Positions 23,015 through 25,813 of a stretch of 38,513 nt of DNA are shown here, piece by piece. The stretch is from Paenibacillus darwinianus. Lineage in GTDB: Bacteria > Bacillota > Bacilli > Paenibacillales > Paenibacillaceae. The position numbers and the translations under genes are program-made. The stretch lies in the NCBI RefSeq assembly GCF_000598065.1, contig NZ_KK082149.1, positions 51,371 to 89,883 of the forward strand, in the 5' to 3' direction. A model generated the notes under the pieces. The model saw only the letters and a list, made by a program, of their open reading frames with translations. It was not told the DNA's origin and ran no database searches. Numbering within the stretch: position 1 is the first letter of the stretch; each line of letters begins with the position of its first letter.

Positions 23015-23081
23015 CTCGACAAAAAAAGATCGGCCGTAACGGCATGTTTAGACAGACATTGAAATAAGATTAACCTATACT
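23015..23081 (+). promoter_or_regulatory. Candidate Spo0A-dependent spoIIG promoter with long spacer
   Basis: A good -10 TATACT (23076-23081) and a -35 TAGACA (23049-23054) are 21 bases apart, unusually long. The Bacillus subtilis spoIIG promoter is known for a 22-base spacer that needs Spo0A bound at the -35 region. Reverse-strand Spo0A-box-like cores lie at the -35 itself (TGTCTAA) and near 23015-23022 (TGTCGAG), each one base off TGTCGAA. The combination fits Spo0A-activated transcription of spoIIGA-sigE. Confidence 0.6.
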
Positions 23082-23134
23082 GATTTCAACCGTTAACCGA
23101 CGCCCTGCCAAGCGGTTCGCTTGCCCGGACAGAC

Positions 23135-23152
23135 AGGAGGGTGAAGCTCATC
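23135..23152 (+). promoter_or_regulatory. Unusual translation start region of spoIIGA
   Basis: AGGAGG (23135-23140) abuts the GTG at 23141 with no spacer, which is poor for initiation. The in-frame ATC at 23150 lies nine bases after AGGAGG, the same spacing used by sigE downstream (GAGGAGG then nine bases to ATG 24114). Either the GTG is used weakly or the ATC is a non-standard start. Confidence 0.5.
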
Positions 23153-24079
23153 GTCGTTTATGCGGATCTCGTATTTGCCGTCAATTTCATCATCGACGGC
23201 TCGGTGCTGCTCATGACCGCGTGGGTGCGCGGGCTGCGGCCCGGGTGGCCGCGTCTGGCGGGGGCGGCGGCTATCGGCGCCTGTTACGTCGTCTTTATGT
23301 TCGCTCCGGCATTATCGTTCCTGTACACCTTCCTCGTCAAAATCGCATTGTCAATTATCATGCTCTGGACGGCATTCGGCTTCGGGAGCCTCCAGCATTT
23401 CACCCGCAACTTCGCCGCGTTCTACGGCGTTAATTTCGCAGCGGCCGGAGGCGTGCTGGGCATTCATTATTTGCTTCAAAGCTCGGGGGAGCTGTGGGAC
23501 GGGATCTGGTTCGCTCGGACAGGCAAGCTGGGCTTTGAGTTTAATGCCGGGATTTGGTTCGTGCTTGCGGCGACGGCCGCTGCCTTGTATGTATACCGCG
23601 CCGTATGGAACGGGCGGAGGAAGCTGGAGAGGACGGAAGCGCATCTCGCCGGGGTCACCGTTACGATTGACGGCCGGGAATGGCATTGCACCGGACTGAT
23701 CGATACGGGAAACCAACTTTACGATCCGCTGACGAGAACGCCGGTGATGGTGATGGAAGCGTCCTTATGGCAAACAGAGCTGCCTGCCGCATGGATGGAA
23801 CGCATCCGCGATACGCACGTCGACAAGCTGCTTGCGGGTCTTGACGCGGACAATAGTCCATGGCGCGACCGGCTGCGGCTGGTGCCCTACCGCGGCATTA
23901 ACCGTGGCACGCAATTCATGCTGGCGCTGAAACCGGACGGGGTCTGCATCGAGCAGAACGGTCGGATATTCGAATCGCATAAGGTGCTGATCGGACTGGA
24001 TGGCGGGAAGCTTGTGTCGGACGGCACGTATCAAGCGATCGTCCATCCTTCATTGCTCGAGAGCCGGGACGCCGGTTGA
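23141..24079 (+). CDS. spoIIGA: SpoIIGA, membrane aspartic protease that activates pro-sigma-E
   Basis: A protein of about 312 residues that sits in the mother-cell side of the sporulation septum and cuts the pro-sequence off sigma-E when signalled by SpoIIR from the forespore. The N-terminal half has about five transmembrane segments. The C-terminal half is a retropepsin-like domain with the catalytic motif GLID188[10 protein letters not shown] (numbered from the GTG). PYRGI and [12 protein letters not shown] segments also match the family. The start is uncertain: GTG 23141 overlaps the ribosome site, while ATC 23150 is better placed and would give M-V-V-Y-A-D-L. sigE follows 34 bases later, the conserved protease-substrate pair. 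Confidence 0.94.
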
Positions 24080-24113
24080 CTACGGAATATGGCAGACGAG
24101 GAGGATGGCAATC

Positions 24114-24836
24114 ATGATAGTCAAGTGGAAATTGATCCTGCAGTTATATTATTACCGGTTTTTGTTTTTATTCGGATTAAAAAGCGAAGAGATCTACTAC
24201 ATAGGCGGAAGCGAGGCTTTACCCCCGCCGCTTACGCGGGAAGAAGAAGAGTATTTGCTGGAAAAGCTTTCTTCCGGCGACTCCGCGATCCGCGCGATGC
24301 TGATCGAGCGGAATTTGCGGCTTGTCGTATACATTGCCCGCAAATTCGAAAACACGGGCATTCACATCGAGGACCTCGTCTCGATTGGGGCCATCGGCCT
24401 GATTAAAGCCGTCAATACGTTCGATCCGGAGAAAAAGATCAAGCTCGCCACTTATGCATCCCGCTGCATCGAGAACGAGATTCTGATGTATCTGCGCCGC
24501 AACAGCAAAATCCGCACCGAGGTTTCGTTCGACGAGCCGCTGAACATTGATTGGGACGGCAACGAGCTGCTGCTGTCCGACGTGCTCGGTACGGAGAACG
24601 ACACGATTTACCGGAACATCGAAGAGCAGGTGGACCGAAAGCTGCTTCACAAGGCGCTTGACAAGCTGTCGGAACGGGAGCGGACGATCATGGAGCTTCG
24701 CTTCGGTCTCAGCGACGGGGAAGAAAAAACGCAGAAGGATGTCGCCGACCAGCTCGGCATTTCCCAATCGTATATATCGCGGCTGGAGAAACGGATCATC
24801 AAGCGACTGCGTAAGGAGTTCAACAAAATGGTGTAG
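24114..24836 (+). CDS. sigE: Pro-sigma-E, mother-cell sporulation sigma factor
   Basis: A 240-residue sigma-70 family factor that directs early mother-cell transcription after proteolytic activation. The N-terminal 28 residues are a hydrophobic and aromatic pro-sequence ending [15 protein letters not shown], where SpoIIGA should cut between the two tyrosines, as in Bacillus subtilis. Region 2 ([16 protein letters not shown]...[11 protein letters not shown]...[18 protein letters not shown]) and region 4 ([13 protein letters not shown]...[27 protein letters not shown]) are nearly identical to known sigma-E. ATG 24114 is nine bases after GAGGAGG; ATG 24105 directly touches that site and is rejected. 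Two terminators follow. Confidence 0.97.
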
Positions 24837-25030: not shown

Positions 25031-25813
25031 TTGACCCGAAACAAAGTTGAGATCTGTGGAGTGGATACCGCAAAACTGCCCGTCCTGACGAACGCCGAGA
25101 TGCGCGAATTGTTCACGGCGCTGCAAACACGAAACGAACTGGCAGCCAGAGAGAAATTGGTTAACGGCAACTTGCGCTTGGTGCTGAGTGTCATTCAACG
25201 ATTCAATAACCGCGGTGAATTTGTGGACGACCTGTTCCAGGTCGGCTGCATCGGCCTCATGAAGGCAATCGACAACTTCGACCTTGGTCAGAACGTCAAG
25301 TTCTCAACGTACGCCGTGCCGATGATCATCGGTGAAATCCGGCGTTACCTTCGCGACAATAATCCGATCCGGGTGTCCCGCAGCCTTCGGGACATTGCTT
25401 ATAAAGCGTTGCAGGTCCGGGACAGCCTAACGAACCTTAACTCGCGCGAGCCGACCATATTTGAAATTTCCGAAGCGCTGAACGTGCCCAAGGAGGATGT
25501 CGTATTCGCCCTCGACGCGATCCAGGATCCGGTCTCCCTGTTCGAGCCGATCTACCACGACGGCGGCGATCCGATCTATGTCATGGATCAAATCAGCGAC
25601 GACAAAAACAAGGATGTCTCCTGGATCGAGGAGATCGCGCTCCGGGAAGCGATGCATAAGCTGGGCGAGCGGGAGAAAATGATTTTATCGATGCGTTTTT
25701 TCGAAGGGAAAACCCAGATGGAGGTGGCGGACGAGATCGGCATTTCGCAGGCCCAGGTATCGCGGCTTGAGAAATCGGCGATCCAGCAAATGCAAAAGCA
25801 CGTTAAAAGCTGA
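25031..25813 (+). CDS. sigG: Sigma-G, late forespore sigma factor
   Basis: A 260-residue sigma-70 family factor that directs late forespore genes such as those for spore DNA protection and germination. The N-terminus TRNKVEICGVDTAKLPVLTNAEM is the highly conserved anti-sigma contact region of SigG. Region 2 (KLVNGNLRLVLSVIQRFNNRG...FQVGCIGLMKAIDNFD...STYAVPMIIGEIRRYLRDNN) and region 4 (KTQMEVADEIGISQAQVSRLEK) follow. The frame is open upstream through the terminator, but TTG 25031 with GGGAGGT at 25017-25023 gives the conserved start. Synteny spoIIGA-sigE-sigG is preserved. Confidence 0.97.
   Translation: MTRNKVEICGVDTAKLPVLTNAEMRELFTALQTRNELAAREKLVNGNLRLVLSVIQRFNNRGEFVDDLFQVGCIGLMKAIDNFDLGQNVKFSTYAVPMIIGEIRRYLRDNNPIRVSRSLRDIAYKALQVRDSLTNLNSREPTIFEISEALNVPKEDVVFALDAIQDPVSLFEPIYHDGGDPIYVMDQISDDKNKDVSWIEEIALREAMHKLGEREKMILSMRFFEGKTQMEVADEIGISQAQVSRLEKSAIQQMQKHVKS

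Follow-up and report, generated by a model that had tools for sequence, protein, structure and literature searches.

In the window, the whole 38,513-nucleotide stretch of Paenibacillus darwinianus DNA analysed here, comparison with related loci indicates that spoIIGA is probably translated from an AUC codon at 23150. The extended Shine-Dalgarno (SD) element AGGAGGGTGA, with its AGGAGG nine bases upstream, would position the 30S subunit, and the initiator tRNA would read AUC as a near-cognate start and insert Met, giving a protein that begins Met-Val-Val-Tyr-Ala-Asp. Like CUG, AUC would be poorly read by the initiator tRNA, which would lower the yield, and it occupies the position of the CUG found in both compared congeners and in 131 of 378 family genomes. 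The preliminary description had offered ATC and a GTG at 23141 as alternative starts; the alignment, the spacing, the SD pairing, the CTG of the congeners and the infC gene of the same genome strongly favour ATC, and GTG is disfavoured. The features of the region are as follows.

23135..23140, + strand: core SD hexamer AGGAGG, nine bases upstream of ATC (pairing with the 16S tail, -14.7 kcal/mol)
23135..23144, + strand: extended SD-like element AGGAGGGTGA (305 of the 378 loci carry GGTG in their SD zone)
23141..23143, + strand: GTG adjoining the SD, the only upstream standard triplet, read as part of the extended SD (pairing -3.2 kcal/mol)
23150..23152, + strand: proposed spoIIGA initiation codon ATC (TIGR02854 alignment; NTG at the homologous site in 377 of 378 genomes)
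23150..24079, + strand: proposed spoIIGA coding sequence, 309 codons plus stop (profile matches, intact frame)
24114..24836, + strand: sigE, with an ordinary ATG start that follows AGGAGG 24099-24104 by nine bases
25031..25813, + strand: sigG, TTG start, control gene (from the window's list of open reading frames)

Position of the spoIIGA start

The open reading frame is identified as SpoIIGA by two profiles, TIGR02854 of NCBIfam (233.2 bits against a cut-off of 209.55, profile positions 2-292 of 293) and PF03419 of Pfam (E 1.1e-81, 274.7 bits against a cut-off of 28.4, positions 1-284 of 284). DTGN is present in its translation, and the gene lies directly upstream of sigE, which is followed by sigG. 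In the GTG-initiated protein, residue 5 is matched by position 2 of TIGR02854, which places position 1 at residue 4, the ATC; the PF03419 model begins at residue 5. An alignment of spoIIGA starts in relatives, which the preliminary description had named as a check, likewise puts the first residue of the family at ATC 23150.

Both observations from which that description set out are borne out. The AGGAGG at 23135-23140 touches the only standard start, GTG 23141-23143, with zero bases between them; after this GTG come AAG and CTC and then, in frame and nine bases past the AGGAGG, the ATC at 23150-23152, which is the spacing also used by sigE. A start farther upstream is ruled out, since GTG 23141 is the sole ATG, GTG or TTG between ATC 23150 and the in-frame stop 23 codons upstream, and a downstream start is ruled out as well, the first standard triplet past the ATC being a GTG 18 codons further. 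Because of GTG 23141 the gene is not one in which no standard start is available in frame; it is one in which the family start falls on a non-standard codon with a proper SD. A similar layout is seen in sigE (24099-24116), in which an in-frame ATG at 24105 adjoins the AGGAGG and the ATG at 24114 lies nine bases past it.

Start codons of spoIIGA in the Paenibacillaceae

The Paenibacillaceae sample comprised 394 genomes, 378 of which have a SpoIIGA match, and all 378 loci were read after alignment to a profile built from the first loci. An NTG was sought at the homologous position, failing that one codon earlier, and failing that one or two codons later; in this count a CTG at the profile position was scored as the start even with a standard codon nearby. 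One locus (L154), in which the alignment began late, was left out of two of the tables, and seven named loci (L031-L037), of which at least three lie on contigs equal in length to contigs of genomes that had been counted, were left out of all counts. The start codons are CTG in 131 genomes, TTG in 91, ATG in 87, GTG in 68 and ATC in 1. Every genome of the 378 except that of the window, with its ATC, thus has an NTG at the homologous start site (-1 to +2 codons; 377 genomes). The expectation that an AUC start would be rare therefore holds for ATC itself (1 of 378 genomes), whereas a weak start as such is frequent among the relatives (CTG, 131 of 378).

In the genus of the window (g1) there are one ATC and two CTG, both compared congeners having CTG. 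CTG starts are found in 21 of 22 loci of genus g2, where they are placed one codon earlier, and in g3 (6/6), g4 (8/8), g8 (3/3), g9 (6/7), g13 (69/100), g15 (1/1), g16 (2/2), g19 (1/1), g6 (9/75) and g18 (3/40); they are absent in g5, g10, g11, g12, g14 and g17. The 16 genomes of genus g7 are exactly the 16 of 394 without any SpoIIGA match, which suggests that g7 is a non-sporulating lineage. In five further genomes (G105, G045, G041, G047 and G249; loci L393, L421, L422, L423 and L333) spoIIGA is split into two matches, as a result of either sequencing errors or broken genes.

Several lines of evidence bear on whether the CTGs of the relatives are true starts. Of the 131 CTG loci, 108 have no ATG, GTG or TTG at a distance of up to two codons from the CTG. 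In the other 23 such a codon lies one or two codons away (an ATG at -2 in 9 of them) and could be the real start. A standard start is therefore lacking from -2 to +2 codons in 109 of the 378 family loci (the 108 with CTG and the window), and by the same rule in 1 of 41 loci outside the Paenibacillaceae. This single locus (L295, genome G430, of the same class) has GTT CTG at the family start position, perhaps another CTG start. At 26 of the 131 CTG loci, in eight genera, an in-frame stop lies at most eight codons upstream with no ATG, GTG or TTG between stop and CTG, and 21 of these 26 are also without a standard codon at +1 or +2; an example of a stop-bounded CTG is that of Paenibacillus sp. 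MSJ-34 (L037), whose start region is the same as that of L003.

The CTGs are also not what would be expected of ordinary leucine codons. Within the first 253 family genes 36% of the Leu codons are CTG, whereas the Leu codons found at the profile start position in the 378 loci are CTG in 110, TTG in 76 and CTC in 1, with no others. For the first 253 loci the probability that 120 of 121 Leu codons at this site are NTG is 3e-30, a value that takes kin as independent and is indicative only. On a tree of 374 SpoIIGA proteins, from which four of the 378 with fewer than 250 residues were omitted, the character CTG versus other requires 18 changes, the window being omitted from this count, against a mean of 107 over 100 shuffles, and CTG is therefore inherited within clades and is not noise. 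The SpoIIGA of the window belongs to a clade of five with the two congeners and genus g16 (branch support 97), and the other four members all have CTG.

Shine-Dalgarno pairing and the upstream GTG

Usable pairing was taken as that of bases -4 to -20 upstream of a start with the 16S tail, in the sequence that we take this tail to have. By this measure ATC has -14.7 kcal/mol and GTG 23141 -3.2 kcal/mol, while the mean of the 246 standard (ATG, GTG or TTG) spoIIGA starts is -12.0 kcal/mol and 0 of these 246 is weaker than GTG 23141. The GTG appears to belong to a widespread element. GGTG is found in the SD zone of 305 of the 378 loci (125 with CTG, 48 with ATG, 58 with GTG and 73 with TTG starts, and the window), a recurrence that fits an extended SD AGGAGGTGA pairing with the 16S tail, and it is in frame in 186 of these 305. 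On this evidence GTG 23141 looks like part of an extended SD and not like a start.

Translation from GTG 23141 despite its contact with the SD, giving a protein three residues longer, is the best of the alternatives, and we consider it unlikely. The codon is open and in frame, and the SD-zone GTG is in frame at 97 of the 125 CTG loci that bear GGTG, as it is at 43 of 58 GTG-start, 20 of 48 ATG and 25 of 73 TTG loci; the frequency at CTG loci, higher than at ATG or TTG loci and about that of GTG-start loci, could hint at a role for the GTG. A spacing of about eight bases would by itself put the SD-zone GTG in frame and may be the cause of this excess. Of the 108 CTG loci that lack a standard codon close by, 79 resemble the window in that this GTG, at -3, is the sole standard codon among the eight preceding ones. 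Besides the weak pairing at GTG 23141 itself, three observations in the relatives speak against the longer protein. Where a CTG locus has the GTG in frame (97 loci), the mean pairing is -12.6 kcal/mol for CTG and -3.4 kcal/mol for GTG, and the GTG is better placed in 0 of 97. In the same loci, where the GTG lies at -3, the codon that immediately precedes the CTG is not conserved (3.03 bits), whereas the eight codons after it are conserved (about 0.7-1.3 bits); the codon after the GTG has 1.75 bits, with its first base fixed by the GGTGA of the SD. Finally, in the 26 stop-bounded CTG loci an upstream standard start is impossible.

We also considered whether a stronger SD compensates for weak codons. 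The mean SD energy is -12.98 at CTG loci and -12.02 at ATG loci, a difference that is not significant when kinship is corrected for by comparing independent pairs on the tree (median p 0.375). A role of RNA structure around the SD was rejected, the leader folding no better than shuffled sequences (z 0.04).

Probable non-standard initiation in the draft genome

The infC gene of the same genome (L302, contig C79, 1557-1766, minus strand) has no ATG, GTG or TTG in the stretch from its in-frame stop to the IF3 domain, and the genome must therefore initiate at some non-standard codons. The infC start is likely ATT, in the sequence ATT ATT AGC behind GGAGGTGGAGG. Another protein of this genome (L303, contig C13, 5337-5537, minus strand) also carries the N-terminal domain of IF3 (E 3.9e-17) and is a possible IF3 paralogue.

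The case for AUC comes from one draft genome, 75% complete and in 111 contigs, in which a base error may be present. An error at 23150, the real codon being CTG or ATG, would account for an ATC that is unique among 378 genomes, and the incompleteness of the assembly lends this some weight. To turn CTG into ATC two bases would have to be wrong, and one to turn ATG into ATC, and the frame of spoIIGA and the neighbouring genes are intact; we regard such an error as quite improbable.

The leader of the gene was aligned with those of relatives, and three elements are identical in all seven leaders.

23017..23024, + strand: conserved CGACAAAA, identical in 7/7 aligned leaders
23047..23057, + strand: -35-region element of the spoIIG promoter, TTTAGACAGAC, identical in 7/7 aligned leaders
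23076..23081, + strand: -10 element TATACT, identical in 7/7 aligned leaders

The first of these resembles a Spo0A box in reverse, and transcription of spoIIG should begin near 23088. Since TTTAGACAGAC, TATACT and CGACAAAA are kept in all seven leaders, the operon looks functional. Early decay, in which the start has been lost and the gene is barely or not translated, would fit the lack of a standard start in a good position, and is made very improbable by the full frame with its complete PF03419 match and DTGN and by the conserved promoter elements and strong SD of the leader. Among the congeners, G001 has an identical AGGAGGGTGA with a spacer one base longer, its own TGA in frame and the GTG out of frame, and G002 lacks a GTG there, and the 29 codons that precede its CTG include no standard one.

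Neighbouring genes as controls

The two genes downstream, which we take to be sigE and sigG from sequence motifs, were read at the same loci. All sigG starts are standard (226 of 226; ATG 138, TTG 87, GTG 1) with no CTG, sigG having been found by motif in 226 of the 378 loci, in part since many of the sequence stretches retrieved stop short of it. The motif search located sigE in 365 of the 378 loci, and in 364 of these 365 a standard start accompanies a fair SD, the remaining locus having no standard start; the rule used here is loose, accepting any standard codon 20-50 codons before the motif with 4 of 6 SD matches. Judged about as loosely, spoIIGA has a standard start in 215 of its first 253 loci, mostly through the SD-embedded GTG of CTG loci, and lacks one in 38, whereas 0 of 241 sigE loci lack one. 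When read at a fixed distance, 177 of 241 sigE loci have ATG, the length of sigE being variable. sigG is the cleaner control. Because the starts of sigG and sigE are ordinary at the same loci, the weak start belongs to spoIIGA among the three genes.

Comparison with known non-standard starts

A small number of bacterial genes are known to start at near-cognate codons. The pcnB gene of E. coli (AUU) is reportedly kept at low expression through its near-cognate start, and differs from spoIIGA in gene, codon and phylum. The infC genes with AUU or AUA starts resemble spoIIGA in having a non-standard start behind a strong SD; according to the available portion of PMC13009471, infC of S. aureus starts at AUA and that of E. 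coli is autoregulated by IF3, whereas SpoIIGA is without a known role in initiation. The same portion describes S. aureus ccpN (AUA) and cvfC1 (AUU), which like spoIIGA have a non-standard start and an extended SD and are kept in relatives. Their starts were shown by ribosome profiling and reporters, whereas that of spoIIGA is read from sequence, and they have other codons and are not sporulation genes. In poor medium starts of this type reached about 10% of the expression obtained with AUG, and in rich medium up to 30% for one gene (PMC13009471, in part).

A sporulation sigma gene beside spoIIG with a weak start, and in this akin to spoIIGA, is B. subtilis sigG, for which the accessible text of PMC5942855 gives a GTG start 1.3-fold below ATG and non-ATG starts in 11 of 15 Bacilli. 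It differs in that GTG is a standard codon and that the notable brake there is an SD hairpin, whereas the spoIIGA leader folds no better than shuffled sequences. The TTG at 25031 of the window sigG agrees with these non-ATG starts of Bacilli, as far as PMC5942855 was available.

Reported yields of near-cognate starts vary widely, and the loss of SpoIIGA may therefore be large or small. In the available part of PMC9680021, AUU, AUA, CUG and AUC behind one leader give, relative to AUG, 5-20% in C. butyricum and 7-17% in C. sporogenes, and behind another leader 40-100% in two clostridia; in E. coli the same codons give 0.1-0.3% of AUG with the first leader and 0.04-3% overall.

Among the matches listed from the open-licence literature we found no non-standard spoIIGA start, and the portions available of PMC11339384, PMC8501984, PMC3188533, PMC3533761 and PMC13174948 are silent on the spoIIGA start. 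The regulators infC, pcnB, ccpN and cvfC1 are already known to have weak or near-cognate starts, and sigG of Bacilli to have non-ATG ones. Apparently new, in that we did not find them in the open-licence literature, are CUG as the commonest spoIIGA start in the Paenibacillaceae and AUC in one member.

Implications

A weak start would lower SpoIIGA relative to pro-sigma-E, and a protease kept below its substrate would suit a switch that awaits the septum. We tentatively speculate, while thinking it somewhat doubtful, that the spoIIGA start of the Paenibacillaceae is a selected throttle, in which CUG, and here AUC as a further setting, keeps the protease below its substrate so that sigma-E awaits the septum. 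What invites the idea is the contrast between spoIIGA, at which many lineages keep CUG, and the adjoining sigE and sigG, which keep standard starts. Alternatively, spoIIGA may tolerate weak codons since little protein is needed. Gene callers limited to ATG, GTG and TTG would misplace the spoIIGA start in many genomes. If the throttle is real, start-codon strength controls the protease that triggers mother-cell development, and a key developmental switch may depend on poor start signals.
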